Of a stretch of 64,000 nt of DNA, positions 1-22,928 are shown piece by piece; position 1 is the first letter of the stretch, and every line of letters begins with the position of its first letter. Location of the stretch: NCBI RefSeq assembly GCF_017833295.1, contig NZ_JAFIBW010000001.1, forward strand, positions 2,494,001-2,558,000, given 5' to 3'. This stretch comes from Methylobacterium sp. PvR107. Its GTDB lineage: Bacteria > Pseudomonadota > Alphaproteobacteria > Rhizobiales > Beijerinckiaceae. Both the position numbers and the translations under genes were made by a program. The notes beneath the pieces are model-generated. The model made no database searches. It saw only the letters and a program-made list of their open reading frames with translations, and had not been told where the DNA came from.

Positions 1-721
1 GCGTGCCGGTGCCGCCGAGATCGGTGGTGGCAGCGGCGGCTAGCGACGTCTCGGTGGAGGCGAAATCGATTCCGCCGGTCCTGGCCGAGGCGGTGAGCGC
101 GGTGGCGAAGGCGGCGCCGTCGGGTGAGACCTTCAGGGAAACATCGTCGCTCCCCAGTAGCCCGAGCAGCGCACGCGCCGCGTAGCCGGTCTCGAGGACC
201 AGGGCGGCGTCGCGGGTCGCGTCCCGCTTGTTCACGAAGATCCGCATGTCGCCGCTGCCCGGCGTCGCATCGTCCCAGGTCAGCAGCGCCGCGTCCGCCT
301 TGACGGCGAGGCGGTTGGTCGCGTCGGCACCCGTGTTGATCCCGAGGCGGCTGATGCTCTGGACGGCCGTGAGGGTGCGGCGGAAGCTCGTCCAGGCGGC
401 GCCGTCGAACACGTAGAGGTCGGCCTCGTCGATCAGGTAGGCGAGCCAGCCGGCCCGGGGCGCCGCACCAGTCCAGACGCCGTCGGCGTAGCGCACCATC
501 TGGCCCGCGAGGCCCGCCCAGGCGCCGCCGGGATCGGCCGCGGCCACGAGGTAGCGGTCGCCCTCCGCGGGGCCCGGCGGCGGCGCGATCAGGTCCTTGT
601 CGAGGCAGGCGAGCTGCGCGAGCGCGTCGATCAGGCCGAGCGCCTCGTTGTGGGTGACGTGCTTCTGGGCCTGGCTCGCGGCGATCAGCGGCAGGCCGAG
701 ATGGGGCGTGGTGTCGGACAT
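1..721 (-). CDS. DUF2793-domain tail-associated protein, 3' end beyond window
   Basis: The frame opens with ATG at 721 and runs to base 1 without a stop, so about 240 N-terminal residues are visible and the C-terminus lies outside the window. The first ~120 residues fit DUF2793: a start like MSDTTPHLGLPLIAASQAQK, then an HNEAL segment and a repeated motif of Trp/Gly around 'GDRYLVA' and 'WAGLAGQ'. Proteins of this family commonly follow the GTA host-contact gene in Rhizobiales and are thought to belong to the tail tip or fibre. It starts 17 bases after the end of the TIM-barrel tail gene on the same strand, so it is probably the last cistron of the GTA operon. The remainder (about residues 125-240) is beta-rich and unassigned. 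Family assignment is good; the role in the particle is inferred. Confidence 0.8.
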   Translation of the reverse strand, partial: MSDTTPHLGLPLIAASQAQKHVTHNEALGLIDALAQLACLDKDLIAPPPGPAEGDRYLVAAADPGGAWAGLAGQMVRYADGVWTGAAPRAGWLAYLIDEADLYVFDGAAWTSFRRTLTAVQSISRLGINTGADATNRLAVKADAALLTWDDATPGSGDMRIFVNKRDATRDAALVLETGYAARALLGLLGSDDVSLKVSPDGAAFATALTASARTGGIDFASTETSLAAAATTDLGGTGT

Positions 722-738
722 GGCGGGCTCCCGGGCGT

Positions 739-3700
739 TCAGGCCGAGCGGACGGGGATGCGGACACGGCGGGCGGGCCCGGGGCCGGCGACGGCGCCGA
801 TCTGCGCCACGGCCAGGTCGAGGCTGGTTTGCGGCCCGCCGAAATCCGCCGCCTCGTCGGCGTAGAGGAGGTTCTGGGCCTCGGCCCGGAGCGTCCGGAC
901 GGCCGTGTCCCCGGAGAAGAGCGTCACCGCGTAGGCTTCCGGCTCGTCCAGCGGGATCTCGGCCGGCTCCCAGGAATCGCCGTCGCGGCGTGCCCGGCGG
1001 ATCCAAGAGAGCCGCACGCCCTGCGCCTCCCGGCGCGCCCGCAGGTGCACGGGCCGCAGCGGCCGGAATGCCGCGAGGCCGGCGGTGGCCGCGAGTTCCG
1101 TGAAGGCCGGATCGCCCGGGTCGCTCCCCGCCGGGCCGATCCGGTAGCGGAAACCCCGTCCGGCCTCGTCGAGCCGCTCGACCAGGGGGACCACCGCGCC
1201 GTCGTCGAGGCGCACGATCAGGCTGCCCAGGGGGGTGTCCCGGCCGGCGGCCTCCTCGCTGCCCGCGAGCCCGCGCAGGAGCCCGGACAGCCGGTAGGTG
1301 TCGGTTCCGGTGAGCACGGCCTGCGCGACGCCGAGCAGCTCGACGGCGCCGTCCGGGCCGATCAGCGCGAACAGGTTGCCGCCGGCGAGCATTGCGGCCG
1401 TGCCCACCGAGGCGAGCGCGCTGCCCCGACGCAGGGTGACGTCGAGCGTCACGCCGCGCTGCAGGCGCCAGAGCGGTCCGGCCGGGAGCGCCGCGCGGGT
1501 GCGCCCCAGGCAGGCCGGGTAGTCGACGCGTCCGTGGAGCGCGAGCGGTCCCGTGCCGTCCGCGCGCCAGATCGCGGCCGCCCCCGGCCAGGGCTCGGCC
1601 GCCACCGCGAGGTATTGCAGGATCGTGGGGCTGCCCCGATCCACCGGCAGGTCAAGGGCGAGCGCCAGCGGCGGTCCCGGGAAAGCCGGCGGCGCGAGCG
1701 CCGGCAGGGCCGGGCTGCGGGCGAGTGCCCGCCCGGGGCCGCCGCGCGGCGGCACGCCGCTCGCCTCGATCCGGCGGCCGGTGGGGGCGTCGTCGATCCG
1801 GTCGATCTTGCGCAGCACCGTGCCGCCCGGCACGTCCGCCGGGACCGCCAGGAGATCGCCGGGCTCCAGCGCGACCCGGCGCGGGCTGACCGTGAACACC
1901 GCGCTGTCGCGGGCCGCGATGATCCGGTCGAGCAGCGCCTCGGCGAGCCCGTCGCCGGTCTCGCAGCGGGTGACGATCGCCGCCTCGATCCGGGTCTCGC
2001 GCCGCCGGTCGCCCGCCGGCCGCGCGGCCGCCGCCGCGGCGCGGCGGTAATCCGGGCTCTCGGACTCGGTGATGCCGAGCTCCACCGAGCGCGGCAGGGC
2101 GCTCTCCTCGGCGCGGACCTGCCGGAGCACGGGCCTGTCCTCGGAAAGCCGGACGAGCTCGGCCTCGGCGAGCACCACCGGCCGGTCGCGGCGCGGCCCG
2201 CGCAGGCGCAGGGTGCCGGCCACCGCCGAGACGTCGAGGCCGTAGACCTGCGCCAGGGTCTCCAGGGCGCCGCGGGCCGTGAGCGGCCGGTCGATGACGT
2301 AGCCGTCGAGATAGGCCGCAGCCTCCACGGAGACCGGCGCGTCGAAGCCGAACTCGGCGAGGATCTGCCGGACCAGCAGGTCGAGGTCGCAGCCCTCGAT
2401 CCGCCCGGTGATCCAGTGGCCGATGCGCCAGTTGCCGGCATCCGCCCAGGGCCCGCGCACGGTCGGGAAGGCCGGGAACGGCCGCGCGTCCCAGGCCCAG
2501 ACGTGGAGCGCCGCCGGGTCGACCATCCGGCCGCCATAGACCGGGGAGACCGGATTGTCGGCCTCGCGGAAGCCCGGCGCGGCGGGATCGAAGCGCGCGA
2601 TCACCGCGGCGACGCCGCGGAGCTGGATCAGCTCGTCGCGCAAACCCCGGGATTCCGGCGGGACGGCGCTCTCGATGGATTTCGGGTCGGGGAAGACGTT
2701 CGGCCCGTTCGTGCCCTTGTCCACCGCCGGCACCCCGATCTCGGTGAGCCAGATCGGCTTAGCCATCGGCACCCAGGCGGTGGCCCGGGTCTCGACGCCG
2801 CCGTCGCGCTCGACATGCGGGTTCGACCACCACGCCAGGAGGTCCTTCGGCCGGTAGATCCAGGCCTTGCCGTAGGCCCCGTCCTCGATCGGCCTGCGGT
2901 CCTGGGCGGCGCGACCGGCCGCGTCGGCGTAGTACCAGTCGAAGCCCTCGCCCGAGGCGCCCCGATCCTTGAGGTAGGCGCGGTCGGTGATGTCGCCCGC
3001 GACCGCGAGGTCGGCATGGTCCGGCGCGTCGCGCCAATCCGAGACCGGGGGGTACCAGTCGATCCCGACCGCCGCGATGGCGGGATCGGCGAACAGGTCG
3101 TCGAGCGGGAAGCGCAGCGTGGCGCCGCCGTCGCGGACATCGGCGCCGTATTCGGTCCAGTCGGCCCCGTAGACTAGGGCGGCCCCCGGTCCGAGGCGGT
3201 CGCGCACGGCGGCGGCGAGATCGCGGAACGCCTGCACGGCCGGGTAGCCGGCCGCGCCGCGCAGGCGGGTCAGGCCGACATACTCGCTGCCGAGGATGAA
3301 GCCCGCGATCCGCACGCCGGACGACGCCCAGCCTGCGGCGAGGTCGGCGTAGTGCAGCACCGCGTCCCGGTAGCCGCCCGCGAAGAAGGCCGCGACCTGC
3401 GCGTCGACCAGAGCAGTGCCGTCCGGGCTCCCGGGCAGGCCGGGCGCCGGATCGCAGGTGATGCGCCCGCGCCAGGGATAGGACGGCTGGGTCGCGCCGG
3501 GCACGCGCGGATCGGGCCGCGCGTTGCCGGCCGGCACGTCCATCATCACGAACGGGTAGAGCACCACCTCAAGCCCGCGACGGGCCAGCTCGGCCACGAG
3601 CCGGGTCAGCCCATCGTCCGAGGGCGTCCCGCCGTAGGATGGGCTGCCGTCCGGAAGGAGCGAGACGATCTCGGCCTCGGCGCGGCCGATCCCGGCGACG

Positions 3701-4632
3701 CGCCAATCGGCCGGCAGCGCGCGCTTGCTGCGGCCCTCTACCTTCGGGACCACCCGACAGGCCCCGGCCCGCAGGTCCGACCCGAACCACGTCGCCACCA
3801 CGGCGACCCGCCGCAGGTTCGGGCAGAGCGCCTGGAGCGCATCGAGGGAGGCGATCACGTCGGTGCTGCGCTGGAGCTGGTGCCGGTTGGCGGCCTCGGT
3901 CCGGCCGAGGCCGAGATCGACGGTGACGCGGTCCGGATCGAGGCCGAACTCGCTCGCCCCGGGGATCAGGTCGACGGCGCGGATCCGGCCGCACAGGCCG
4001 TTGACCGGGCGGATCACCTCGAAGGCGAATTGCGGGACCCGGTTGCCGAAATCGGCGAGCGGCAGGGCCTCGAACACCACGTAGGCGAGGCCGCGATAGG
4101 CCGGCGCGTTCTCGGGCCCCTCCTTGGCGACGATCAACGGGTCGGGCGCCTGGTCCGGGCCGCCGGTATGGACCCGCAGGGTCAGGCCGGCCTGGTCGAT
4201 CTCCCTGCCGTCCGCCCAGATCCGACGGACGCAGGCGATCTCGCCCTCGCACAGGCCGACCGCGAGGTTGGCGAAATAGGCGTAGCGCGTGGTCACGGTC
4301 TTCTGGCCGCCCAGGCTCTTGGCCGGAACGGCGGCGCGCGCCACCGTGGTGTTGGCGACCTCCAGCGGGCGCGTCGCCCAGATCAGGGTGCCGCCGATCC
4401 GGGCCCGGCCGTAGATGCGGGGGATCGGGTCGCCCTCGGTCGAGGTGAGCCCGGCCACGTCGGCGAGCCGCGGCCCCTCGACGAAGCGGGTGTGCCGCCC
4501 GGAGCCGAACAGCGCGCCGCCGAGCGCCGCGCCCGCCACGGATCCGAGCGCCCGCCCGAGCATGCCGCCGATCGGGCCGCCCAGCGCGGTGCCCAGGGCC
4601 GTGCCGGCCGAGGACAGGATCAGCGTGGCCAT
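739..4632 (-). CDS. GTA host-contact tail protein with TIM-barrel domain (g15-type)
   Basis: This 1297-aa protein matches the largest GTA gene (RcGTA g15 class). Start ATG 4632 was chosen because MATLILSSAGTALG followed by a Gly/Ala-rich stretch is the usual beginning; an in-frame ATG at 4737 would add 35 untypical residues. Order seen: Gly-rich N-terminus (1-60), conserved region with 'PRIYGRARIGG' and 'YAYFANLAVGLCEGEI', a TIM-barrel glycoside-hydrolase-like domain (roughly 360-640, with 'GSEYVGL', 'GIDWYPPVSDW' and 'WLTEIGVP'), then a phage tail domain to the C-terminus. In GTAs this protein forms the tail hub and tip and contacts the recipient surface. It ends the main run of tail genes, but a plus-strand chemoreceptor separates it from the NlpC/P60 gene upstream. 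Confidence 0.93.
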   Translation of the reverse strand: MATLILSSAGTALGTALGGPIGGMLGRALGSVAGAALGGALFGSGRHTRFVEGPRLADVAGLTSTEGDPIPRIYGRARIGGTLIWATRPLEVANTTVARAAVPAKSLGGQKTVTTRYAYFANLAVGLCEGEIACVRRIWADGREIDQAGLTLRVHTGGPDQAPDPLIVAKEGPENAPAYRGLAYVVFEALPLADFGNRVPQFAFEVIRPVNGLCGRIRAVDLIPGASEFGLDPDRVTVDLGLGRTEAANRHQLQRSTDVIASLDALQALCPNLRRVAVVATWFGSDLRAGACRVVPKVEGRSKRALPADWRVAGIGRAEAEIVSLLPDGSPSYGGTPSDDGLTRLVAELARRGLEVVLYPFVMMDVPAGNARPDPRVPGATQPSYPWRGRITCDPAPGLPGSPDGTALVDAQVAAFFAGGYRDAVLHYADLAAGWASSGVRIAGFILGSEYVGLTRLRGAAGYPAVQAFRDLAAAVRDRLGPGAALVYGADWTEYGADVRDGGATLRFPLDDLFADPAIAAVGIDWYPPVSDWRDAPDHADLAVAGDITDRAYLKDRGASGEGFDWYYADAAGRAAQDRRPIEDGAYGKAWIYRPKDLLAWWSNPHVERDGGVETRATAWVPMAKPIWLTEIGVPAVDKGTNGPNVFPDPKSIESAVPPESRGLRDELIQLRGVAAVIARFDPAAPGFREADNPVSPVYGGRMVDPAALHVWAWDARPFPAFPTVRGPWADAGNWRIGHWITGRIEGCDLDLLVRQILAEFGFDAPVSVEAAAYLDGYVIDRPLTARGALETLAQVYGLDVSAVAGTLRLRGPRRDRPVVLAEAELVRLSEDRPVLRQVRAEESALPRSVELGITESESPDYRRAAAAAARPAGDRRRETRIEAAIVTRCETGDGLAEALLDRIIAARDSAVFTVSPRRVALEPGDLLAVPADVPGGTVLRKIDRIDDAPTGRRIEASGVPPRGGPGRALARSPALPALAPPAFPGPPLALALDLPVDRGSPTILQYLAVAAEPWPGAAAIWRADGTGPLALHGRVDYPACLGRTRAALPAGPLWRLQRGVTLDVTLRRGSALASVGTAAMLAGGNLFALIGPDGAVELLGVAQAVLTGTDTYRLSGLLRGLAGSEEAAGRDTPLGSLIVRLDDGAVVPLVERLDEAGRGFRYRIGPAGSDPGDPAFTELAATAGLAAFRPLRPVHLRARREAQGVRLSWIRRARRDGDSWEPAEIPLDEPEAYAVTLFSGDTAVRTLRAEAQNLLYADEAADFGGPQTSLDLAVAQIGAVAGPGPARRVRIPVRSA

Positions 4633-4787: not shown

Positions 4788-6485
4788 ATGACCGTAAAGC
4801 TCGGGATCAAACCGAAGATACTGCACAAGATCGTCCTGATTGTCCTGGTTATCGGGGCGATCGTCGGCGGCTGCATCTGGCACGAGACCGGGCGCATGGA
4901 GGCGATCGGCCGGCAGTACACGCGCTTCATCGACCACGATGCGAAGATGGCCGAGGGCGCGCGGCAGATCATCCGCCTGTTCCATCAGACCAATTACGCG
5001 ATCTATCGCGTCATCGCCGAGACCGAGGCCGAGCGGATCCAGCAGGCGAGCCAGGAATTCGACGTCGCGGTGATCGGGCTCCGGCAGACCTTCGCGGCCC
5101 TGATCGCGGAGGCGCCCGAGTTGAGGGACCAGGTCGACACGCTACGGGGCCGCGTGGAAAGCTACATCTCGGACGTGTCGGAGGCGCGCATCCTCGGGGA
5201 AGTTAACCTCAACGCCGACGCCCTCACCCTGATGCACCAGAAGATCGATCCGATCGTCGCGGACCTGGGTCGAAGCACCAGCGCGCTCAGCGAGGGCATC
5301 AGCGACCGCATGGGGGCCGGCGCGCAGGATCTCGCCGGGCAGATCGCGGGGATGCGCCGCGACCTCTGGACGTACACGAGCCTCGGCCTGCTCGCCGGGC
5401 TCGCCACCGCCGTCGCGGTCGGCATCTTCGGCATCGGCCGCCCGCTCGGCCGCCTCGTCGCGAGCCTGGAGCGGATGGCCGCCGGGGATACCGAGGCGCG
5501 GATCGCCGGAGAGCGGCGGCGCGACGAGATCGGCGCCGTCGCGCACGCCGTCGATCGCATCCGCGCCCTGGTCGCCCAGCGCGCTGCCGCCGAGGCCGAG
5601 AGCCGGCGCGTGGTGGACGCGACGGTCGCGGCGGAACGGCGGCGCGCCATGGCGGCCCTGGCTGACACGTTCGAGGCGACGGTGGGCGGGATCGTCGGGA
5701 CGGTCTGCGACGCCGCAGCCGCGCTGCGGGTGACCGCGTCGGCGATGAGCATCACCGCCCGCGGCACGGCCGAGCAATCCACGATGGTGGCGGGCGCAGC
5801 CGAGGAAACCGCCCGCACGGTGAACACCGCAGCGGTCGCGGCCGAGCAGCTCGGGGTCTCGGCCGCCGAGATCGGCCGCAGCGCGGACGAGTCGGCGCGC
5901 CTGACCCAGGCGGCGGTGACCGAGGCCGAGCAGAGCACCGGCCAGGTTGGCGCCCTCAGCGCGGCAGTGGCGGAGATCGCCGACGTCGTGCATCTGATCG
6001 CGCAGATCGCCGGTCAGACCAACCTGCTGGCCCTCAACGCAACGATCGAGGCGGCCCGCGCCGGCGAGGCCGGCCGCGGCTTCGCGGTGGTGGCGGGCGC
6101 GGTCAAGGACCTCGCCGCCCAGACCGCCCGGGCGACCGAGACGATCGGCCAACGGATCGGATTGGTCCGGAACTCGACCGACGCGGCGGTGCTGTCGATC
6201 ACCACGATCAGCGAGCGGATCCACGCGGTCCGCGCCGTCACCGCCGCGATGGCCACGGCGATCAGCCAGCAGGGCGCGGCGAGCCGGGAAATCATCCAGA
6301 GCGTGGCGCAGGCCGCCGCTGGCACCGACGCGGTGACCCGGACCATCACGGGCGTCGCCGAAGCCGCCGGGGAAACCGAGACCGCATCCGGTCAGGTGCT
6401 CGGCGCGGCGGACGAACTCGCCCGGCAGTTCGCGGCGCTGCGCGGCGAGGTCGCGAGTTTCCTGGCCACGGTGCGGGCGGCGTGA
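4788..6485 (+). CDS. Methyl-accepting chemotaxis protein inside the GTA cluster
   Basis: A 565-aa transmembrane chemoreceptor. ATG 4788 places a first membrane helix at about residues 14-32; an upstream ATG at 4719 would add 23 charged residues. A periplasmic helical sensor region follows (about 35-190), then a second membrane helix (about 195-217), a HAMP domain, and the cytoplasmic signalling domain whose tip is recognisable from '[20 protein letters not shown]' near residue 410-430. No C-terminal CheR/CheB docking pentapeptide is seen. The ligand is unknown. The gene is divergent from the GTA tail-tip gene (155 bp between starts) and is convergent with the NlpC/P60 gene, so it breaks the GTA operon on the opposite strand and probably has its own promoter in 4633-4787. 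Confidence 0.93.
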
Positions 6486-6517: not shown

Positions 6518-7078
6518 TTATTGGCGCGTATCGAAGCTTCGCGACGCGACCGGCCGCAAGGTCATGGACGTCTTCGGCGTCGAGCCGACCGTGGCGACCG
6601 GATCGCTGCGGCCGGATCCGCTCCCCGGAAACCGGAACACCCCCGTCAGGTGCCGCCGCCACCACGCGGTCAGCGCCACCTCGGCGACCACCGCGCCGTC
6701 ATGGGCATGGATCATCGCGCCGTCGCCGGTGGCGATGGCGCAGTGCCGGGCCGGCAGGTGGCGGCGGAAGGCGAAGAGCAGCACGTCGCCCGCGCGCTGC
6801 GCGCCGGCTGCGGGCGAACCGGCCACCGGCACGAGGTGGCGGGCCGCCGCCGCTCCGAGCGGGTCGGTGCCGGGCGCTACCGATTCCGCCCAGGTGGCGC
6901 TGTAGGGCGGCACCCCCTCCGGCTCGACGCCGTAGAGCCCGCGCCACACCCCGCGCAGCAGCCCGAGGCAGTCGCAGCCGACCCCGCGAAGCGAGGCCTG
7001 ATGCCGGTAGGGCGTGCCCAGCCAGAGGCGTGCCTCGCCGAGCGCCGCCGCGCCGACATCCCGCCGCATCGCGCTCAT
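6518..7078 (-). CDS. GTA/phage NlpC/P60 cell-wall peptidase (g14-type)
   Basis: A 186-aa NlpC/P60 peptidase of the phage/GTA type, expected to nick peptidoglycan during DNA entry. The nucleophile is the Cys of 'GCDCLGLLRGVW', where the usual DCSGL has Leu for Ser. The catalytic His is in 'RHCAIATGDG' or the following 'MIHAHDG' segment. Start ATG 7078 gives MSAMRRDVGAAALGEARLWLG; the start overlaps the stop of the DUF2163 gene by four bases (ATGA), so the two are translationally coupled. About 30 residues after the domain (Ser/Arg/Thr-rich, ending SFDTRQ) look like a read-through extension. The downstream partner (g15) is reached only after the inserted chemoreceptor. Confidence 0.92.
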   Translation of the reverse strand: MSAMRRDVGAAALGEARLWLGTPYRHQASLRGVGCDCLGLLRGVWRGLYGVEPEGVPPYSATWAESVAPGTDPLGAAAARHLVPVAGSPAAGAQRAGDVLLFAFRRHLPARHCAIATGDGAMIHAHDGAVVAEVALTAWWRRHLTGVFRFPGSGSGRSDPVATVGSTPKTSMTLRPVASRSFDTRQ

Positions 7079-7950
7079 CGGAACAGACTCCCGCCGTCGA
7101 GGACGTGATCCGAGCCCGGCACCGCCCGCATCACCGCGTCGTTGCCGGGCAAGTGCGGGAAGCCCTGGAAGTTGACCGCATTGGCGAACCGGTCGCGGCA
7201 GGTGGCGAGGCGCTTGTCGCACCCGGCGGTCACGGTGAAGGCGTCGCCGGCCGCGACCGGCCGGGGCGGCGCGCTCCAGAGTTCGAGCAGGGCTCCGAGC
7301 TGGAGGCGTACATCCGCCGCGTGCCCGGCATTGGCCCCCTCCGTCCAGGTCAGCCGGCCGCCGGTGAACAGGCCGTCCGCGAATCCGCCGGAGAGCGCGA
7401 CCGAGAGCGTTGCGGGTTCCGGAACACCGGTCACGCGGCCGGTGGTGCGCCACGGGACGAGGTCGACCCGGCAGCGGGAATCGCCGAGTTCGGCGCCGCA
7501 GGTGGCCCGGTAGGTTCGGCCGCGCTCGGCGTCGAGCCGGTGCGTGAGACCGCGCAGCTCCGCCACGAAGGCGTCGCCCTCGCGGCGGATCTCGCCGATC
7601 GTGGCGAGGTCGAGGAGCAGCCGCGTCTCGGGATGGGTCCAGTCGACCAGCCAGGTCTCGACGGCGGCACCGTCGTAGAGGCCGCCGGCGATGTCGGCCT
7701 CGGTGAGGCCGAGGCTGCTGAGCGCCCCGGCCACGTCGCCGCCCGAGATCGCGAAGCCGAGCTCGGCGCTGGCCTCGGCTGCCTCCAGCCCGGTCCGGGC
7801 CTCGTGGACGAGGCCCGCGACGGTGAGGTCGCGGTCGTGGTCGGTGAAGCCGAGGGTGGCCCCGTCCCGCCGCCGCAGGGACCAGCAGCGGCACAGGGTG
7901 GTCACGCCCCCCGCGAGATGGGCCGCGAAGGCCTCCGGGATGTCACGCAT
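7075..7950 (-). CDS. GTA tail hub protein, DUF2163 (g13-type)
   Basis: A 291-aa protein beginning MRDIPEAFAAHLAGGVTTLC, the typical opening of DUF2163 tail proteins. The conserved 'RRDGATLGFTDHDRDL' follows at about 25-40 and 'VDWTHPE' and 'RTYRATCGAELGDSRCRVDL' lie further on; these Cys residues are typical of iron-sulfur-type hub proteins of siphophage/GTA tails. Start ATG 7950 was chosen from the family alignment; the frame stays open upstream through a repeat element that is not coding. It is followed by the NlpC/P60 gene with a four-base overlap and is separated from the DUF2460 gene by a 281-bp gap holding a palindromic repeat. Confidence 0.92.
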   Translation of the reverse strand: MRDIPEAFAAHLAGGVTTLCRCWSLRRRDGATLGFTDHDRDLTVAGLVHEARTGLEAAEASAELGFAISGGDVAGALSSLGLTEADIAGGLYDGAAVETWLVDWTHPETRLLLDLATIGEIRREGDAFVAELRGLTHRLDAERGRTYRATCGAELGDSRCRVDLVPWRTTGRVTGVPEPATLSVALSGGFADGLFTGGRLTWTEGANAGHAADVRLQLGALLELWSAPPRPVAAGDAFTVTAGCDKRLATCRDRFANAVNFQGFPHLPGNDAVMRAVPGSDHVLDGGSLFR

Positions 7951-8049: not shown

Positions 8050-8182
8050 GCCGTCATCCCGGGGCCGCGCGGCGGAGCCCGGGATCCGGATCCGCCGACG
8101 CGCCGGGTCATGGCACCACCAGCGGCTCTGGGTTGCCCGCCTCCGGGTCCGGGCTCGCCTGCGGCGCCCCGGAACGACGAGG
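8050..8182. repeat. Composite palindromic intergenic repeat, family A
   Basis: The 7951-8231 gap between two GTA tail genes holds no gene. It contains two inward-facing, GC-rich half elements: one with GTCATCCCGGGG then GGAGCCCGGGATCC, the other with GGGCTCGCC then GCGCCCCGGAACGAC. In reverse complement, the whole 130-bp unit matches the element at 54028-54145 (shared GTCGTTCCGGGGCGCCGC, GGCGAGCCCGGA and ACCCAGAGCCGC blocks). Half copies occur at about 18395, 20942, 47565 and 50205. It resembles a REP/MITE-like mobile palindrome rather than a regulatory site of the GTA. Confidence 0.75.
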
Positions 8183-10862: not shown

Positions 10863-11093
10863 TCAGGGCTCAGCGGCGTCCGGATCTGGAAAAGCGGCGA
10901 GCAGGCGCTCGAAGGCGGCGCGGCTCAGCGGCTCCGGACCGGCGCGACGGCCGAGGGCCGCGGCGAACTCCCGGGGCGTCGCCGCCCAGAATTCCTGCGG
11001 CCGCCAGCGCAGCACCCCGAGGCCGAGCGCCAGGGCGTCGTCCCACGGAAAGCCGGCCGGGTCATGAGCCGCCCCCGACCGCGGCGCGGTCAC
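10863..11093 (-). CDS. GTA tail assembly chaperone, TIGR02216-type
   Basis: A 76-aa protein with 'FPWDDALALGLGVLRWRPQEFWAATPREFAAAL', diagnostic for the small TIGR02216 proteins found between gp10 and the tape measure. Such proteins probably act as tail assembly chaperones. The ATG at 11093 overlaps the stop of the gp10 gene by four bases, so the two are coupled, possibly reflecting an ancestral frameshift pair as in other tail chaperones. Confidence 0.88.
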   Translation of the reverse strand: MTAPRSGAAHDPAGFPWDDALALGLGVLRWRPQEFWAATPREFAAALGRRAGPEPLSRAAFERLLAAFPDPDAAEP

Positions 11094-14109: not shown

Positions 14110-15048
14110 ATGTCCCCTCGCCCGATCCGCAAGGCCGGCCTTCGCGAGCGTGTCCTGCGCGAGCGTGTCCTGCGCGGCGGCCTCGCGGGCCGATTGGGCG
14201 GCGGCCTCCTCGGCGCGGCGCTGCTCGGCACGGTCGCGGGCCTGATGCCGGCCCCCGCCGCGGCGGTGATCAACGGCACCACCACGCGGGATCCGAACGG
14301 GGCGCGCAGCTTCGTGGTGCGCATCGAGAGCACGGAGGGCGAGATCTGCTCGGGCACGCTGATCGCGCCCGACCTCGTGCTCAGCGCCGCCCACTGCGTG
14401 ATGCGCCCGGCCGGCTACACGGTGATCAGCGTGGACCGCGGCTTCCGCCAGCAGCGGACCGCGGTGATCGCCGCGACCATGCACCCCGACTTCGTCCCCG
14501 GCACGACGCCGGAGGACCAGCCGGGCGTCGACCTGGCGCTGCTCAAGCTCGAGCAGCCGCTGGGCACCGACTACATGCCCCTCGATCCCCGCGGGGCCGC
14601 CTCGATCGATAACGGCGCGCCCGTCGATATCGCGGGCTTCGGCGTCGTGGCGGAGAACCGGCGGAACTCGGCGCGCGTCCTGCGGCTGGCGCATCTCGTG
14701 TCGATCGGCTCGCTGCAGGTCGCCAATCGCGTGACCGTGGTGACCGACCGGCGGCGGATGGCCGAGACCTCGGGGGCCGGGGCGTGCCTCGGCGATTCCG
14801 GCGGCCCGATCCTGGCCGGCGGCCCCGGTGGCTACCGGATCGTCGGCGTGGTGAGCTGGTCGAGCGGCGCCCTGCAGCAGGGCGCGCGCCGGACCGCCTG
14901 CGGCGGCTTCACCGCCGTGACGCCGGTGGCCGAGCACGCCGGCTGGATCGCGTCCCGATCGGCGGAGCTGTCGCGGATCCAGGTGGGCGAGGCGCTGCCG
15001 CGCGGCAACCGTTCCGACTGGATGGCGCGCCCGGGCCGGCACCGCTAG
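14110..15048 (+). CDS. Second secreted trypsin-like serine protease
   Basis: A 312-aa S1-family protease, paralogous to the one just upstream. An unusually long Arg-rich leader (1-30) precedes a hydrophobic signal segment (about 30-52), then VINGTTTRDP as the probable mature start. Triad: H95 in 'SAAHC', D141 in 'GVDLALLKL', S230 in 'GDSGGP'. A 15-bp exact tandem repeat at 14143-14172 encodes RERVL twice inside the leader; a shorter start after it would give a more normal signal peptide, but no better start codon is visible. A GGAG sits about 10 bases before the ATG. A strong hairpin follows the stop. Confidence 0.9.
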   Translation: MSPRPIRKAGLRERVLRERVLRGGLAGRLGGGLLGAALLGTVAGLMPAPAAAVINGTTTRDPNGARSFVVRIESTEGEICSGTLIAPDLVLSAAHCVMRPAGYTVISVDRGFRQQRTAVIAATMHPDFVPGTTPEDQPGVDLALLKLEQPLGTDYMPLDPRGAASIDNGAPVDIAGFGVVAENRRNSARVLRLAHLVSIGSLQVANRVTVVTDRRRMAETSGAGACLGDSGGPILAGGPGGYRIVGVVSWSSGALQQGARRTACGGFTAVTPVAEHAGWIASRSAELSRIQVGEALPRGNRSDWMARPGRHR

Positions 15049-15325: not shown

Positions 15326-15871
15326 ATGGCCGACACCGGCACCAGCAATACCCCGCGGACGCACAAGACCCGCAACAACACGGATTCGAACGCCAAGAAG
15401 GTCTCGATCGAAGCGCTCAACGCCCGGCTGGCGGACGGCATCGATCTGGCGCTCGCGATCAAGCAGGCCCATTGGAACCTCAAGGGACCGCAGTTCATCG
15501 GCGTCCACGAGATGCTCGACGGGTTCCGGACCCAGCTCGACGAGCTCAACGACACGGTCGCCGAGCGCGCGGTGCAGCTCGGCGCGACGGCCTTCGGCTC
15601 GACCCAGGCCGTCGCCGAGCGCACGAAGCTCCCGGCCTACCCGACGGGCATCTACGCCATCGCCGACCACATCGCCGCGCTGATCGACAGCTACGCCGCC
15701 TACGCCAACGCGGTGCGGCAGAACATCGACGAGACCGACGAGGCGGGCGATCCGGACACGGCCGACCTGTTCACCGAGATCTCAAGGGCCGTGGACAAGC
15801 ACCTGTGGTTCCTCGAGGCCCACGTGCAGGAGCCGACCGGCACCCTGCGCGACGGCAATTCGGGGCGCTAG
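15326..15871 (+). CDS. dps: Dps-family DNA-binding ferritin-like protein
   Basis: A 181-aa Dps. Ferroxidase residues are visible: H49 in 'KQAHWNLKG', H61 and D65 in 'GVHEMLDGF'. The N-terminal ~25 residues are rich in Thr, Asn, Lys and Arg, a tail of the kind used for DNA binding. The dodecamer stores iron with H2O2 and shields DNA in starvation and oxidative stress. It is the third plus-strand gene between the GTA connector and capsid genes, with its own upstream region (15126-15325). Its end is 221 bp from the capsid stop (convergent). Confidence 0.93.
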   Translation: MADTGTSNTPRTHKTRNNTDSNAKKVSIEALNARLADGIDLALAIKQAHWNLKGPQFIGVHEMLDGFRTQLDELNDTVAERAVQLGATAFGSTQAVAERTKLPAYPTGIYAIADHIAALIDSYAAYANAVRQNIDETDEAGDPDTADLFTEISRAVDKHLWFLEAHVQEPTGTLRDGNSGR

Positions 15872-16092: not shown

Positions 16093-17385
16093 TCAGCCGG
16101 ACTTCAACAGCTTGATGGCGTCGAAATCCTGCACGCCGCCGCCGACGCGCTTGGTGGTGTAGAACAGCACGTAGGGCTTGGCCGAGTACGGGTCGCGCAG
16201 CACCCGCATGCCGGTGCGGTCGACCACGAGGTAGCCGCGGCGGAAGTCGCCGAAGGCCACCGACAGGCTGTCCTTTCCGAGATCCGGCATCGCCTCCGCC
16301 TCCGTCACAGGGAAGCCGATCAGCGTCGCGGACCGGCCGGCGGCGAGCGGCGGCTGCCAGAGGTAGTTGCCTTCTGCGTCCTTGAACTTCCGGATCGCGC
16401 TCTGGGTGCGCCGGTTCATGACGAATCCGGCGTTCTGGCGGTAGCCCGCCCGCAGGCCGTAGACGAGGTCGAACAGCACGTCCGCCGGGTTGGTCGACGG
16501 GAACCCGCCCGCCGCCCCGGTGGCGACGAATCCGAGCTTGCCCGGCACCCAGGCGGCGTTGGCGACCGTGTCGTAGCTCAGGACGCCGCGCGGGCGGCTG
16601 GCGCCGTTGCCGGTGACGAAGGCGATGCCCTCCTGCTCGGCGAAGGCGGTCTCGACCTCGGCCGAGAGCCACCCGTCGAGATCGACCACGGAATCGTCGA
16701 GGAGCGTCTGCGTGGCGGCCGGCATCGCGTAGAGTTCCATGGCGGGGAACGCGATCTCCGAGAGCGCCGGCGCGGCGGTTTCGGGCCGCGGTGCCGTCTC
16801 CGCCGCCCAGCCGGTGACCGGCGCCCCCACCGAGATCGCGCGCTTGTACTGGGCGCCCGAGATCTGCTGCACGCTGGCGATCGACCGGATCGGGGACACC
16901 TGGGCGAGACGCGTCAGCACGGTGCGCTCGATCGTGTCCGGCACGAGGTAGCCGCCATCCGGCCCCGAGCCGGCCGACAGCGCGTTGGCCTCCAGGCGCT
17001 TGAGCCCGGCGCTCTCGCCGGCCCGCACGTACAGGTCGAAGGCCGCCTTGTACTCTTGGGCGAGCGCATCGCCCCGGGGCCCAGGCTGGCCCAGCGGCGG
17101 CCGGGCCTGCTCCAGGCCGATCCGGTCGAGGCGGGTGCGGGCGGCGTCCAGCGCCGCGTCGATGCGGGCGAGCTTCTCCTCGGTGAGCACGTCGGCGCCG
17201 AGCCGGCCCTCGATCGCCCCGAGGCGTACCTCGTTCGTCTCCTTGAACGCCGCGAAGGCGGTGGCGAGCTCGTCGAGGGCCGAGCGCATCGGCCCGCCCT
17301 CGGGCCGGGCGGCCTTGTTCTCCAGATCGGGCAGGCCGCCCTTGGTCTCGAGGTCGGAGCTGGCCGTCAGGGTGTTGGCATCCAT
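16093..17385 (-). CDS. GTA HK97-type major capsid protein (g5)
   Basis: A 430-aa HK97-fold capsid protein. The first ~110 residues form the charged, helical scaffold (delta) domain with 'ELATAFAAFKETNEVRLGAIEGRL'; the capsid core begins near 'LKRLEANALSAGSGPDGGYLVP' at about 130 and includes 'PRPETAAPALSEIAFPAMELYAMPAATQTLLDDS', a family signature. The prohead protease encoded 15 bp upstream probably removes the scaffold. The capsid packages about 4 kb of random host DNA in described GTAs. Start ATG 17385 gives MDANTLTASSDLETKG. Confidence 0.95.
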   Translation of the reverse strand: MDANTLTASSDLETKGGLPDLENKAARPEGGPMRSALDELATAFAAFKETNEVRLGAIEGRLGADVLTEEKLARIDAALDAARTRLDRIGLEQARPPLGQPGPRGDALAQEYKAAFDLYVRAGESAGLKRLEANALSAGSGPDGGYLVPDTIERTVLTRLAQVSPIRSIASVQQISGAQYKRAISVGAPVTGWAAETAPRPETAAPALSEIAFPAMELYAMPAATQTLLDDSVVDLDGWLSAEVETAFAEQEGIAFVTGNGASRPRGVLSYDTVANAAWVPGKLGFVATGAAGGFPSTNPADVLFDLVYGLRAGYRQNAGFVMNRRTQSAIRKFKDAEGNYLWQPPLAAGRSATLIGFPVTEAEAMPDLGKDSLSVAFGDFRRGYLVVDRTGMRVLRDPYSAKPYVLFYTTKRVGGGVQDFDAIKLLKSG

Positions 17386-17400: not shown

Positions 17401-17907
17401 TCAGGAGGGGTGTCGGAGCCGGAGGGACGGAACCGGCCGGCGGGACGGGGCGATCCGGCGGGCGAGGCCGCGGATCTCCGCCACCAGGGGATCCTCGCCG
17501 GGAGCCGGGCTCGCCCGGGCCCCCGGCTGGAGCGGGAAGGTCACCAGCGAGATCTCCCAGAGATCGACCTGATGGAGCCGGCGCGCGCCGCCCGCGCCCG
17601 GCCCAGCGCGCAGCGTGCGGAAGCCGATCGACAGCCCGTCGAGGCCGCCCTGGCGCATCAGCGCGTCGACCTCCCGGGCGCGCTGAACGTCGAGGTTGAG
17701 CTGACCCTCGGCCCGGAGGCCGCGGGCATCCTCGCGGAGGGTGAGCCAGCGGCCGATCGGCTCGGCCGGATCGTGCTGGAACAGCAGCCGCACGCCGGCC
17801 GGCCCGCGCCGGGCAAGGCTCGCCGCGAAGGCGCCCGGCATCACCACGTCGCGGCCCAGATCGGGCACGCCGAACAGGCTGGCGTAGCCGGTGAAATGGC
17901 CGTCCAT
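17401..17907 (-). CDS. HK97-family prohead protease (g4)
   Basis: A 168-aa prohead protease (U35/S78 clan). 'GHFTGYASLFGVPDLGRDVVMPGAF' at the start is diagnostic. Catalytic residues are probably H45 in 'LLFQHDPAEPIGRW' and S93 in 'GLSIGFRT'. ATG 17907 gives the family start. It is immediately upstream of the capsid gene. The portal gene would normally adjoin it but here a plus-strand GIY-YIG gene lies between. No small g3.5-like gene was found. Confidence 0.92.
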   Translation of the reverse strand: MDGHFTGYASLFGVPDLGRDVVMPGAFAASLARRGPAGVRLLFQHDPAEPIGRWLTLREDARGLRAEGQLNLDVQRAREVDALMRQGGLDGLSIGFRTLRAGPGAGGARRLHQVDLWEISLVTFPLQPGARASPAPGEDPLVAEIRGLARRIAPSRRPVPSLRLRHPS

Positions 17908-18100: not shown

Positions 18101-18385
18101 GTGTCGCTGCTCGCCAGCCGGCGGCACGGCACGCTGTATCTCGGCGTGACCAACAACCTCGCGCGGCGGGTTCACGAGCATCGCAGCCGGCTGAGCCCCG
18201 GCTTCGCCGCGACCTACGGGGTGACCCGGCTCGTCTGGTACGAGCCCTACGACCGCATCGTCGAGACGATCGAGCGGGAGAACGCGCTCAAGACGTGGCG
18301 CCGCGACTGGAAGATCCGGCTCATCGAGGAGATGAACCCGGCTTGGTCGGATCTATACGAGACGCCGTCGGGATGGACGGGCTGA
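18101..18385 (+). CDS. GIY-YIG-domain nuclease-like protein
   Basis: A 94-aa single-domain GIY-YIG protein. 'GTLYLGVTNNLARRVHEH' holds the motif Tyr, Gly and Arg; 'ERENALKTWRRDWKIRLIEEMNPAWSDL' holds the usual Lys/Arg helix and catalytic Glu. GTG 18101 is the only usual start after the in-frame stop at 18053. The first GIY Tyr-pair appears as 'AYDVSLLAS' just ahead of that GTG, so translation may begin at a rarer upstream codon, otherwise motif I is clipped. Related UPF0213/UvrC-like proteins have unknown roles; some behave as mobile-element nucleases. It sits between the GTA portal and protease genes on the opposite strand. Confidence 0.85.
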   Translation: MSLLASRRHGTLYLGVTNNLARRVHEHRSRLSPGFAATYGVTRLVWYEPYDRIVETIERENALKTWRRDWKIRLIEEMNPAWSDLYETPSGWTG

Positions 18386-18481: not shown

Positions 18482-19669
18482 TCAGCCCCCCGGCGGCTCC
18501 GGCGGGTAGCCCACCGCCTCGCGCTTCTCGGAGACCGTCAGGAAGTCGGCGGCCTGGACCCGGCGCCAGAGGGATTCCCGCTCGCCCGCGAGCGCCTCGA
18601 TCCGGTCGAGGTCGGGCTCCAGGTCCACCGGGCCGAAGGCCGGTTCCAGCCAGCCGGCCAGCGCCCGCGCGGTGCGGCTAGCCAGGGGGATCAGGGTCTG
18701 ACGGTAGAGGGCGCGGTTCGCCTCGGCGTAGTTGGAATGGGTGCTGTCGCCGGGGAGCCCCAGCAGGAGCGGCGGCACCCCGAAGGCCAGGGCGATCTCC
18801 CGGGCCGCCGCGTTCTTGGCCGCGACGAAATCCATGTCTCGCGGCGACAGGGCGAGCGGCTTCCAGTCGAGGCCACCCTCGAGCAGAAGCGGCCGGCCGG
18901 CATTGGCCGCGCCCTGGTAGTTCGCCTCCAGCTCCGCCTTCAGGCGCTCGAATTGCGGCTCGGACAGGCTCGCCCCCGCGAAGACCAGCGCCCCGGACGG
19001 CCGGGCGGCGTTGTCGAGGAGCGCCTTGTTCCAGGCGCTCGCGGCGTTGTGAATGTCGAGCGCGGTGGCGGCGGCCTCGATCGGCGCGAGGCCGCCGGTC
19101 TCGTCGGCCGGGTGGAACAGGGCGAGCGCCAGGATCGGCGCCACGGCCGGCTCGCCGGGGGCCGGCAGATCGAACCGGCGGTTGCGCCCGCCCGCGCTGT
19201 AGACATAGGCGGCCGGCCAGCCGTCGGGCCCCGGCAGCATCCGCATCCGGCCCGGCCGCAGGGCCTGGAGCGCCGCGACCCGCCCGTCGAGGGCGACCGC
19301 CTCCAGATAGGCCGTGCCGGTTAGCAGGAGGTCAGCGTAGACGGTCTCCAGCAGCTGCGTGCCGCTCTCCCGCGGGTTCGGCCGGGCCAGCAGCGCCAGC
19401 AGGTCGGCCGCGCGCGGCCCGCCGGGCCCGGTGGCGATCAGCGGCAGGCTCGCGGCGCTCTCGGCGACCAGCCGGATGGCCCGGTGGACCACCGGATTGC
19501 CCTGGTAGCCCGCCCGGGCCAGCGCCGCCGGGTCGCGGGGCGTCCAGCTGGCCCGGCCCTCGGCGTAGAGCGCGAAGGCGGGCGCCGCAGCGGCCTTGGT
19601 GGCCAGGACGGGGCCGCCGGGCGCGGCGCGGCGCGCGAGGCGCGCCAGCTTCTCGAGGACAGTCGACAT
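18482..19669 (-). CDS. HK97-family portal protein (g3)
   Basis: A 395-aa portal protein, the dodecameric DNA channel of the head. 'AGYQGNPVVHRAIRLVAESAASLPL', 'YADLLLTGTAYLEAV', 'VPPLLLGLPGDSTHSNYAEANRALYRQTLIPL' are family hallmarks. The C-terminus 'VSEKREAVGYPPEPPGG' is typical of GTA portals. ATG 19669 gives MSTVLEKLARLARR; the frame stays open upstream only as a shadow of the plus-strand gene at 19700. TerL is 1.3 kb further upstream, separated by that inserted gene and a repeat-rich gap. Confidence 0.94.
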   Translation of the reverse strand: MSTVLEKLARLARRAAPGGPVLATKAAAAPAFALYAEGRASWTPRDPAALARAGYQGNPVVHRAIRLVAESAASLPLIATGPGGPRAADLLALLARPNPRESGTQLLETVYADLLLTGTAYLEAVALDGRVAALQALRPGRMRMLPGPDGWPAAYVYSAGGRNRRFDLPAPGEPAVAPILALALFHPADETGGLAPIEAAATALDIHNAASAWNKALLDNAARPSGALVFAGASLSEPQFERLKAELEANYQGAANAGRPLLLEGGLDWKPLALSPRDMDFVAAKNAAAREIALAFGVPPLLLGLPGDSTHSNYAEANRALYRQTLIPLASRTARALAGWLEPAFGPVDLEPDLDRIEALAGERESLWRRVQAADFLTVSEKREAVGYPPEPPGG

Positions 19670-19699: not shown

Positions 19700-20590
19700 A
19701 TGCAGCCCTGGTCCCCCTCGCGCCCCCGCGCGGCCCGGTACGGGTGTCTCGCGGCGGCGCTCGCGGCCTTGGTCGCCGCGGCGGCGGAAGCCGGGGAGGC
19801 GCCCGTCTGGCCGGAGCCCAACGGGACCCTGGTCCTGGCGCGGCCCTTCGGCCGGTCGGATCTCAGCCTGCGCCTCGCCCGCCGCGTCGCCGGAGCGGTC
19901 GACAGCCTGACCTGGGACGGCGTCACCTTCATCGCCGACGCGGAGGCGGAGGACGCCCTGCAGGCGCGCGTCACCGTCGGCCCGGACGAGGCCGGCCGCG
20001 CGGCGAGCGAGGGCGGCGGCCCGGAGGACGGCGTGCCGGCCGCGCAGCGGCTGACGGGGCTGCGGTTCGGCCGGAGCTGGGCCGAGACCGAGACCCGCCT
20101 CGCCGGGACGCCGCCCGGGGCCAAGGCCGTGATCCTGCACAAGCGGGTCGGCCTCGGCCTGCCGGGTCTCGGCAACGCGGTCGAGGTGCAGGCGCGCTTC
20201 GTCCTGCCCGAACCCGCCGACGCCGTGCGCTTCGAGGCCCTTGCGGCCTCCGTGCCGGCGGAATTCTCCGAGGCCTGGAGCTTCGACCGCGGCACCGGAA
20301 CGGTCAGCCGGCTCGATCCCGCCGACGGCGATCCGCGGCGTCCCGTGATCCTGGCGATGCCCGAGGGCTCGCACGCCCTGGCCTTCTGGAGCCCGAATCC
20401 GCCCGCGCAGGAGGCGGATGCGCCGCGCCCCGCCTTCGCGGTCCGGCCCGGTGCGGACACCAACCGGCTGAGCTGCGCCTTCGCGGTCGCGCACGCCGCC
20501 TCGGGCGCCCACGATTTCGCCTGTTACGTCCTGATCGGGACCCTGGCCGATATCCGCGCTGCCCTCCGGAGCCTGACCGCGCCGGAGTGA
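19700..20590 (+). CDS. Secreted protein of unknown function
   Basis: A 296-aa protein I do not recognise. A signal peptide is visible (Arg-rich start, then hydrophobic 'CLAAALAALVAAAAEAGEA', cleavage near residue 32). The mature part is beta-rich with paired Arg/Asp segments: 'NGTLVLARPFGRSDLSLRLARRVAGAVDSLTWDGVTFI' and 'AFWSPNPPA'; two Cys near the C-terminus ('LSCAFAV', 'DFACYVLIG') could form a disulfide. No catalytic signature is evident. It is divergent from the portal gene (30 bp apart) and is one of the opposite-strand insertions in the GTA cluster. Confidence 0.75.
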   Translation: MQPWSPSRPRAARYGCLAAALAALVAAAAEAGEAPVWPEPNGTLVLARPFGRSDLSLRLARRVAGAVDSLTWDGVTFIADAEAEDALQARVTVGPDEAGRAASEGGGPEDGVPAAQRLTGLRFGRSWAETETRLAGTPPGAKAVILHKRVGLGLPGLGNAVEVQARFVLPEPADAVRFEALAASVPAEFSEAWSFDRGTGTVSRLDPADGDPRRPVILAMPEGSHALAFWSPNPPAQEADAPRPAFAVRPGADTNRLSCAFAVAHAASGAHDFACYVLIGTLADIRAALRSLTAPE

Positions 20591-21013: not shown

Positions 21014-22375
21014 TCAGAGACGCCGGATCCGCGGCTCCGCGCGCGTCTCGAGCATCAGGTGGGTGAGCGCCCAGACCAGGGCGTCGAGCCGGTCGGGCGA
21101 GGCTCCACCGGACAGCCCGTCGGGGCCGAAATCGCACAGCTCGTCCTCCAGCGCCGGCAAGGCGCCGACATGGTGGACCAGCCCGCGGGCGTAGAGCAGC
21201 GACACCGGCTCGGCCCGCAGATACTTGCCGCGCGTGGCGTGCACCCGCGTCACCGGCACGGCGGGATCGCACTGGGCCAGCACGGCGGCGGCCATCTCGC
21301 CGCCCTGGTTGACCTCGACCACGAGGGCGTCGGCCCGGAGCCGGTGATAGAGCGCCAGCGCCGTCCCCGCCCAGGCCTGCGGGCTGGCGCGGGCGAAGCT
21401 CGCATCGGCCAGCACATAGGCGTGGGTGCCGGCCCGCCCGGCCGCGACGATCCCGCAGGCATCCGAGCGCGCACCCGAGCCGGCCGGCGGATCGACCGCC
21501 ACGACGATCCGGCCGAGATCCGGTGCGGCCCCGACCCGGGCGGCCTCCAGGGCGGCGCGGTCCCACAGGGCGTCGTCCCGGTCGGCGATGAGCTCGCCGT
21601 CGAGTTCCTGGCGGCCGAGGCGGGTGCCGGCGTAGCGGCCGACCACCCGCTCCAGGAAGTCCGGCGCGAGGTTCTGCGCGTTGTCCTGCGTGCGCGCCCG
21701 GCTCACGACGGTGCGCGGATCGGCGAGCAGGCGGCGGATCAGCGGGACCGGCCGCGGCGTCGTGGTCACGAGGTTGCGCGGCCGGGCGCCGAGGCGCAGC
21801 CCGAATTGCAGCATGTCGAAGGTCGCCTCCGGCCGGCGCCACTTGGCGGCCTCGTCGCACCAAGCGGCGCCGAATTGCGGGCCGCGGAGCGCGTCGGGCT
21901 CCTCCGCCGAGAAGGCGAGCGCGACTGCGCCGTTCTCCCATTCGAGCCGCCGCCGGCTCGGCGACCAGACCGGCCGCGCCCGGCCGCGGCGCGGCAGGCC
22001 GAGGAGCCCCGACGGCCCCTCCACCATCACGTCGCGCACGTCGAGATGCGTCTCGCCCACCAGCGCGATGCGCCCGACCGGCTCGGGCGTGAAGGCCGGA
22101 TCGCCGCGGGTGAGCGCGTCGACCCATTCGGCCCCGGTGCGGGTCTTGCCGCTGCCGCGGCCGCCGATCACCGCCCAGGTGGTCCAGGGTTCGGACGCGG
22201 CCGGCGGCAGCTGATCCGCCCGGGCCTGGTGCAGCCAGTCGCCGGCCAGCGCCCGGAGCAGCGCCGGCGGCAGGGTCTCGAGGAAGTCAGGCAGACGCCC
22301 GGCCGCCGACAAAGCCAGCATAGCGTCCCGCGATCTCCGCGCGGAGGGCGGGCAGGTCGGGCTCGATGCCGTCAT
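21014..22375 (-). CDS. GTA large terminase (g2)
   Basis: A 453-aa terminase large subunit that pumps DNA into the head. Walker A is 'GGRGSGKT' (about residues 70-77); the Walker B region is 'AAWCDEAAKW'; the nuclease domain has 'IVVAVDPPAGSG' and 'VVEVNQGGEM' and a C-terminal 'DRLDALVWAL'. These carry the acidic residues of the RNase H-like fold. ATG 22375 was preferred because a strong ribosome site (GGGGGAGGGGAG) precedes it; ATG 22321 is an alternative giving a more compact start. It overlaps the small terminase gene by 89 bp. Confidence 0.94.
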   Translation of the reverse strand: MTASSPTCPPSARRSRDAMLALSAAGRLPDFLETLPPALLRALAGDWLHQARADQLPPAASEPWTTWAVIGGRGSGKTRTGAEWVDALTRGDPAFTPEPVGRIALVGETHLDVRDVMVEGPSGLLGLPRRGRARPVWSPSRRRLEWENGAVALAFSAEEPDALRGPQFGAAWCDEAAKWRRPEATFDMLQFGLRLGARPRNLVTTTPRPVPLIRRLLADPRTVVSRARTQDNAQNLAPDFLERVVGRYAGTRLGRQELDGELIADRDDALWDRAALEAARVGAAPDLGRIVVAVDPPAGSGARSDACGIVAAGRAGTHAYVLADASFARASPQAWAGTALALYHRLRADALVVEVNQGGEMAAAVLAQCDPAVPVTRVHATRGKYLRAEPVSLLYARGLVHHVGALPALEDELCDFGPDGLSGGASPDRLDALVWALTHLMLETRAEPRIRRL

Positions 22376-22928
22376 CGCTCCCCTCCCCCGCACCATTCCG
22401 CCCGCCATCCGCCCCGACCGTGTCGAGCAGCCGCTTGAGCCCCCCGAGATCGCGCAGCACCCGGGCCGAGTCGCGCAAGGCCGGCTCGTCCCGGCTCAAA
22501 GCCGCGTCGAACGTGGCGATCTGCCGGGCGATGTGGCCGCACAGATGCGCCCGCAGGACCGCCGGATCGGCCAAAGGCTGGTCCAGGCGCGCGCGCACCG
22601 CCGGTGCCAGGGCCGACCCGAAGGTCGAGACCAGAGCCTTCGGGCCAGGGCGGCCGAGGCCCAGCACCTCGGCGATGTCGGCGGGATCGTTGCCCGGCGC
22701 GCCGAGCAGGCGCAGCAACGCGGCCCGGCGCGCCGCCGGCCAGCGCGCGGTCAGCAGCCAGCGCCGCCGCGGCGGCCGCGGCCAGCCGCCTCGCCTGTTC
22801 CAGTGCCAGACGGTCCGGGCGCTCGCGCCGACGCGGGCCGCGATCTCCGCGACGGAGAGTTCGGTCTCGCGCAGGAGGCACAGGGCCGCCGCGCGGGGCT
22901 CGGCGCGGCGGGGACCGGTTCTCGGCAT
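22287..22928 (-). CDS. GTA small terminase-like helix-turn-helix protein (g1)
   Basis: A 213-aa protein first in the GTA cluster. 'LLRETELSVAEIAARVGASARTVWHWNRRGGWPRP' (about 15-50) is a helix-turn-helix of the kind found in small terminases; the rest is helical. GTA g1 proteins of this layout recruit DNA non-specifically to the large terminase. ATG 22928 has GGAG 8 bases upstream. The frame extends further upstream to 22991 but without a ribosome site. The C-terminus overlaps the start of the large terminase gene. Confidence 0.85.
   Translation of the reverse strand: MPRTGPRRAEPRAAALCLLRETELSVAEIAARVGASARTVWHWNRRGGWPRPPRRRWLLTARWPAARRAALLRLLGAPGNDPADIAEVLGLGRPGPKALVSTFGSALAPAVRARLDQPLADPAVLRAHLCGHIARQIATFDAALSRDEPALRDSARVLRDLGGLKRLLDTVGADGGRNGAGEGSDDGIEPDLPALRAEIAGRYAGFVGGRASA

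Follow-up and report, generated by a model that had tools for sequence, protein, structure and literature searches.

An RcGTA-like cluster of Methylobacterium sp. PvR107 interleaved with antisense host genes, including a protease pair that outlasts the GTA in relatives

Introduction

Gene transfer agents (GTAs) such as those of Rhodobacter (RcGTA) and Caulobacter (CcGTA) are reported to be made as particles by a subpopulation of cells, the producers of which die. In phages, extra genes known as morons lie between structural genes, are absent in relatives, and have their own promoter and terminator. The expression and upkeep of GTA clusters of 14-22 kb are only partly understood. Here, we analyze a stretch of 64,000 nucleotides of Methylobacterium sp. 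PvR107 (positions 2,494,001 to 2,558,000 of contig NZ_JAFIBW010000001.1, referred to as the window), part of a single-contig 6.36-Mb genome (G000), in which an RcGTA-like cluster is divided by host-type genes of the opposite strand. The regulators described for such clusters include GafA, for which the domain DUF6456 is named and whose gene is reported to accompany GTAs (PMC9765227), and GafZ, which is described as resembling the C-terminal domain of GafA and as letting the polymerase pass terminators in the Caulobacter GTA cluster (PMC11150451).

Overall, our reading of the locus, to which we give a probability of about 0.6, is that the only GTA cluster found in this genome has a fixed address, is under selection, and is expressed by anti-terminated read-through through antisense host genes.

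A GTA cluster divided by antisense host-type genes

Codon-based gene calling, together with Pfam and NCBIfam family scans, identified an RcGTA-like cluster from g1 to g15 (window 739-22928; 16 genes including g10.1) in the canonical order and entirely on the minus strand, with a span of about 22 kb that includes seven plus-strand host-type genes in five gaps. Every frame is open. An earlier reading of the DNA, made without database searches (hereafter the sequence-only reading), had described just this order and strand, and had placed seven plus-strand genes in five gaps with no GTA gene disrupted, all of which was confirmed. The nearest named relatives of the capsid are from Methylobacterium species. 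As far as the cited account goes, RcGTA-like clusters comprise at least six genes with neighbors no more than 8 kb apart (PMC6821227), and the largest gap here, between g5 and g6, is 2.9 kb. A second, uninterrupted GTA, which the sequence-only reading had named as the counterevidence to look for, was not found in the single-contig genome, in which TerL and g13 have one match each and a portal search returned one orthologue and one match of 25% identity.

The arrangement is not due to chance, because it recurs in relatives. Window proteins were mapped on two sets of loci with 39 loci in common, namely the best 80 loci of a longer list, which are biased toward near relatives, and the loci of 46 genus genomes. 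In all 77 loci of the 80-locus set that have both g5 and g6, the gap between these genes contains a trypsin-like protease gene in antisense orientation, and it has the same placement in 83 of 83 genus loci; by record title, the genera that bear it include Methylobacterium, Methylorubrum, Microvirga, Bosea, Chelatococcus, Enterovirga, Salinarimonas, and Alsobacter. The protease is usually paired (PRA and PRB), being single in 8 of the 77 loci (L049, L056, L060, L064, L076, L079, L080, and L081), and since PRA and PRB cross-hit, the count of PRB over loci is not independent. All 14 aligned PRA and all 11 aligned PRB sequences retain the catalytic H, D, and S, and the PRA profile matches solved trypsins, many of them starting at their first residue.

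A protease pair that outlasts the GTA

In the 111 genus genomes, presence of the GTA was defined by an orthologous capsid match (90 genomes, including fragments in G008 and G086); the 21 genomes counted as lacking it include G001, G002, G030, G032, and G036, whose only capsid match has 31-42% identity, and G078, a 70%-complete assembly with DUF6456. PRA is kept in 19 of these 21 genomes, in one of them as a contig-edge fragment. Moreover, in all 17 GTA-lacking Methylobacterium loci retrieved, PRA and PRB are neighbors, and the retrieved flanks contain zero GTA matches. These 17 loci form one clade (support 1.00) in a tree built from the two proteases only, for the 108 of 117 loci that have both, four of them outgroups, and this suggests that the loss of the GTA in this clade was a single event.

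The address is marked by a response-regulator/histidine-kinase pair, which is followed in most cases by ccm genes. The regulator/kinase pair lies past g15 in GTA-bearing genomes, that of the window included, and beside the proteases in 15 of the 17 GTA-lacking loci, the other two (L084 and L087) ending early on short contigs. The same flank with proteases and without the GTA is also present in other families, in f50 (G160, G230, and G305) and in f20 (G314), where PRB, PRA, and a DUF465 gene remain on one strand. By contrast, G344 has the flank together with a GTA whose g5-g6 gap is empty of the protease. In a sample of 249 genomes of the order, with capsid matches taken to an E-value of 1e-50 (absence meaning no match at that value) and PRA matches to 1e-25, the capsid was found in 169 genomes and PRA in 30, the latter belonging to four families. 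One address exists in three states, that is, GTA only, GTA with proteases, and proteases only, and GTA loss can thereby be studied as a natural experiment. Since the pair is still found at this address in genomes that have lost the GTA, the proteases are genes of the host that persist beyond the GTA and serve the host without it. The f36/g39 genomes (L102, L104, and L105) had been considered as a further case and were left uncounted, each having a single protease-like match and no close regulator/kinase flank.

It could be argued that the protease pair is instead a component of the GTA, e.g., in release or maturation, given its fixed position within the cluster (77/77 loci) and the trypsin-like peptidase domains of LypA and LypC, which are reported to be needed for GTA-linked lysis in Caulobacter (PMC13236601). 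We set this explanation aside as very improbable because the proteases persist where the GTA is absent, both in the genus (19/21) and, with the address unchanged, in G314, G160, G230, and G305; conversely, G344 and the majority of the GTA-bearing genomes sampled from the order have a GTA but no PRA. Another scenario, in which a row of host genes predates the GTA and the latter was inserted around the row piece by piece, would account for the plain row that these genes form beside the regulator/kinase pair in the absence of the GTA. However, the canonical GTA order is kept on both sides of every insert, the flank in G344 holds an uninterrupted g5-g6, and within the order the capsid has a much wider distribution than PRA, so that we give this scenario, too, very little credence.

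Selection on the GTA genes

The sequence-only reading had argued from intact frames for purifying selection, and the substitution rates bear this out. The NG86 omega between the window and members of its clade has medians of 0.11-0.34 for g2-g14 and is 0.23 for g15 (one comparison). Pooled omega is 0.136-0.222 in 12 pairs of the window's clade (8-13 genes each) and 0.120-0.252 in nine other pairs (6-13 genes), with the caveat that dS may be underestimated at this GC content and omega thus inflated. All 13 core genes are present as single matches of at least 60% coverage in 51 of the 61 loci that span g2-g14; each of the other 10 has one or two genes without such a match, and some of these may be contig ends. 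The GTA genes are under purifying selection, and the locus is a stable one, with a flank common to several genera. The cluster thus appears to be still under selection, at least until recently.

Age and orientation of the inserts

The inserts differ in age, and most besides the proteases are lineage-specific. Dps (24 genus loci), the dioxygenase (14 loci), and homologues of the secreted-type protein (9 loci) are limited to the wider clade of the window, GIY-YIG is present in two genus loci only (the window and G103), and chemoreceptor genes are found in several lineages and several gaps. L004, L005, L006, L152, and L164 have no gene at the dioxygenase site, their g11/g12 gap being 41-58 bp. 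With our own gene caller, 45 of the 61 loci spanning g2-g14 have one or more insert genes in addition to the proteases. The comparison across relatives that the sequence-only reading had proposed therefore shows a protease insert conserved across genera and other inserts that are largely lineage-bound, and its treatment of the inserts as one phenomenon does not stand: the protease pair is old and conserved in its slot, four others are confined to the clade, and chemoreceptors entered several lineages.

All inserts of this genome lie on the strand opposite to the GTA genes, as had been claimed, but the claim fails as a rule for the genus. Genus-wide, 34 family/slot combinations are antisense vs. 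18 sense, a moderate bias (binomial p 0.036, the combinations being not fully independent) in a count that omits PRA, PRB, and any called gene inside a GTA gene that is itself split (L138, L147, L148, plus a dioxygenase row labeled g11/g11) and that takes in weak short open reading frames (ORFs) from our own gene caller. We have therefore dropped the notion that inserts are always antisense.

Other genes were seen in the same gaps of relatives. Toxin-antitoxin-type genes (PIN-domain and, as judged by eye, RelE-like) lie in the g3/g4 gap of several lineages (L018, L026, L029, L042, and others) and likewise in the g14/g15 gap of L014 and L031. A small antisense DUF465 gene takes the dioxygenase slot, g11/g12, in L109, L110, and Microvirga, Salinarimonas, and Alsobacter loci.

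Activator, junctions, and proposed expression

The genome of the window encodes a GafA/GafZ-type DUF6456 protein (C1:4036324-4036719; 139.2 bits against a cut-off of 26.3, E-value 4e-40), the kind of activator expected in genomes with RcGTA-like clusters. Across the genus, DUF6456 exceeds the cut-off in 88 of 90 GTA-bearing vs. 1 of 21 GTA-lacking genomes, the latter being the 70%-complete G078 (Fisher p 9e-19, uncorrected for phylogeny).

Each insert forms a convergent junction with the GTA genes on one side and a divergent junction on the other. The divergent gaps measure 30 bp before g3 and 26 bp before g6, and the PRA/g6 gap has a median of 28 bp in 86 loci (extrapolated from homology). 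Gaps this short hardly have space for a promoter, so that transcription of g3 and g6 must start either farther upstream or inside the antisense gene. The need for read-through or buried promoters, pointed out in the sequence-only reading, is therefore real. Terminator-like sites number 7 vs. 3.2 expected in 4000-23400, with the longest stem at 20853-20877. Separately, weak terminator-like hairpins in the GTA sense were noted ahead of g12, at window 9096-9145 in the dioxygenase/g12 spacer.

By analogy with GafZ, the DUF6456 protein may load an anti-terminated RNA polymerase in rare producer cells, which would yield one long GTA transcript running through the antisense inserts. In the non-producing majority, the GTA would be silent and the inserts would be transcribed from their own promoters. 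Antisense interference with the host genes would cost producers little because producers die, and an insert placed antisense would be prevented from switching on GTA genes, through its own promoter, in cells where they should stay off; such an inability to drive GTA genes fits the moderate antisense excess (34:18). It is also conceivable, if rather unlikely, that the two strands form a two-state switch, in which transcription of the antisense host genes (proteases, Dps, dioxygenase, and chemoreceptor) in the majority opposes leaky GTA expression and the anti-terminated polymerase of producers silences the host genes by antisense RNA. If so, the host genes embedded in Hyphomicrobiales GTAs would have been co-opted as a conserved means of insulation.

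Alternatively, the cluster may consist of several transcription units with their own promoters, some of them buried in antisense genes, and long read-through would then be unneeded. The divergent spacers of 395 bp (dioxygenase/g12) and 193 bp (GIY-YIG/g4) could house such promoters, and GafY-activated accessory GTA promoters are among the features reported for Caulobacter (PMC11150451). By contrast, only 30 and 26 bp are available before g3 and g6. The promoter scan found no promoter-like site vs. 0.5 expected, which counts neither for nor against buried promoters, the scan being weak at this GC content. We regard this alternative as possible, if clearly less probable than read-through. As for whether the particle is still made, a doubt raised in the sequence-only reading, the activator that tracks the GTA and the phage-type lysozyme downstream of the cluster lower the doubt without settling it.

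Several observations weigh against a selected cluster that is expressed by read-through. The omega of g1 is 0.62 (NG86 median, window vs. clade), and pooled omega is somewhat higher in the window's clade than in a clade with few inserts (0.103-0.162 in 8 pairs, 8-13 genes), although the proteases show the same shift. G110 has GTA genes without a DUF6456 match, and G102 has a sub-cut-off fragment only; the DUF6456 gene of G000 is 1.5 Mb from the cluster; and the association of DUF6456 with the GTA may rest on one loss, given that the 17 GTA-lacking loci are one clade. As many as 18 of the 52 insert family/slot combinations are sense, those of g5/g6 being split 8 to 8, and G259, one of five f50 genomes with proteases, has a capsid match (1.7e-110). 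In addition, the cluster is broken in G103, G065, G079, and G091. In G103, the closest relative found (loci L155, L168, L203, L204, and L206), TerL is broken into two parts that share about 11 bp and are separated by about 43 kb, g8 is interrupted after residue 55, and g13 lies at a distance of about 124 kb; large insertions are likely. Such broken clusters, together with a whole Methylobacterium clade without the GTA, are what one would expect of a dying element, the inserts marking a relic whose expression has ended. However, the frames here are open, 51 of 61 loci have all 13 core genes, omega is well below 1, and the activator is kept, all of which make a relic unlikely.

Gene content of the window

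All GTA genes below are on the minus strand. At the head end, g1 (22287..22928) is an ORF in the small-terminase position with an HTH_23 match, followed by the large terminase TerL, g2 (21014..22321; PF03237 and PF17289, Terminase_6N/6C), the portal g3 (18482..19669; PF04860), which starts 30 bp from insert 1, the S78 prohead protease g4 (17401..17907; PF04586, TIGR01543), and the HK97-type major capsid g5 (16093..17385; PF05065). The connector g6 (12658..13218; PF05135) starts 26 bp from PRA and precedes the genes for head completion, g7 (12287..12658; PF05521), gp17-like tail completion, g8 (11874..12290; PF11367), the tail tube, g9 (11450..11860; PF06199), GTA-gp10, g10 (11090..11434; PF11836), and the TAC_6 tail assembly chaperone, g10.1 (10863..11093; PF09550). 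The tape measure g11 (10184..10756) has no Pfam match and reaches 158.6 bits with NF058675, under its 220-bit cut-off. The tail end comprises g12 (DUF2460; 8232..8873; PF09343), the baseplate hub g13 (7075..7950; PF09931, PF09356), the NlpC/P60 protein g14 (6518..7078; PF00877), and the host-contact/tail protein g15 (GTA_TIM; 739..4632; PF13547, PF13550, PF23666). A minus-strand gene for a DUF2793 protein (1..721; PF10983 on the full gene in L083) continues beyond the window start, where it is followed by a phage-type lysozyme (PF18013) and small ORFs without a family.

The seven inserts are on the plus strand. Insert 1, a secreted-type protein without a family match (19700..20590), lies in the g2/g3 gap, and insert 2, a GIY-YIG protein (18101..18385; PF01541), in the g3/g4 gap. 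The g5/g6 gap holds Dps (insert 3, 15326..15871; NF006975, 238.4 bits against a cut-off of 114) and the two trypsin-like proteases with signal-like N-termini, PRB (insert 4, 14110..15048; PF00089) and PRA (insert 5, 13245..13991; PF00089). The TauD-type dioxygenase (insert 6, 9269..10180; PF02668) is in the g11/g12 gap, and the chemoreceptor (MCP; insert 7, 4788..6485; PF00015, PF00672) is in the g14/g15 gap.

The accessory gene g3.5, which we do not treat as defining for RcGTA-like clusters, was not found in the window or in 42 Methylobacterium/Methylorubrum loci, some of which are short; it is present in 33 of the 38 non-Methylobacterium loci of the 80-locus set. Rfam and tRNA scans of the window returned nothing. 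A copy of a genomic repeat of about 130 bp, with at least 39 further matches in the genome, lies in the g12/g13 gap (window 8051..8179), and this gap is about 14-20 bp in many relatives.

Rearranged clusters and a transposon-like insertion in the capsid gene

Two distant Methylobacterium genomes, G065 (L138:4003-17051) and G079 (L144 from 8537 and L165 from 12337), have a capsid gene that is interrupted at positions agreeing to within about 2 bp. The interrupting DNA is bounded by inverted ends (TGTGCAGATnCCCATAACTTG), and inspection by eye suggests a target duplication of 4 bp. The end sequence, with up to one mismatch, has three matches in two genomes among the 111 genus genomes, only at the capsid splits. 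The G079 insert encodes proteins with TniQ, TniB, and Mu-transposase-C domains, and looks Tn7/Tn5053-like from this domain content; the G065 insert encodes a right-end protein with HTH domains, without a TniQ match. Our literature search found no earlier account of a transposon that homes on the capsid gene of a GTA. Elsewhere, the portal gene of L147 (G091) is interrupted by 4.7 kb of inserted DNA that includes a transposase-like gene (labeled by eye), and L107 (G342) has a protease-bearing cluster of disturbed order, with TerL between the protease and extra capsid fragments.

Comparison with known systems

A description of the present arrangement was not found in a literature search whose scope lay outside subscription papers. 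Antisense host genes inside a selected cluster across genera make GafZ-type anti-termination testable in a new host. Like RcGTA and CcGTA, the cluster has the same families in the order g1-g15 and a DUF6456-type activator encoded elsewhere in the genome; those clusters are described as being about 14 kb, whereas the one here extends over about 22 kb and includes seven antisense host genes, and g3.5 was not found. As with GafA and GafZ, a DUF6456 protein tracks the GTA across the genus, although anti-termination by GafZ is reported as demonstrated in Caulobacter and would apply to Methylobacterium by analogy. LypABC, described as a CARD-NLR-like control of GTA release in Caulobacter, likewise links trypsin-like serine peptidases to a GTA, but LypA and LypC are described as multi-domain proteins, whereas PRA and PRB are single-domain proteins with signal-like N-termini and are kept without the GTA. 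Finally, the inserts resemble phage morons in being extra genes between structural genes that are absent in relatives, as in the dioxygenase-free g11/g12 gaps of the five loci noted above; unlike morons, they resemble genes of the host, lie mostly in antisense orientation, and include one pair that outlives the element.

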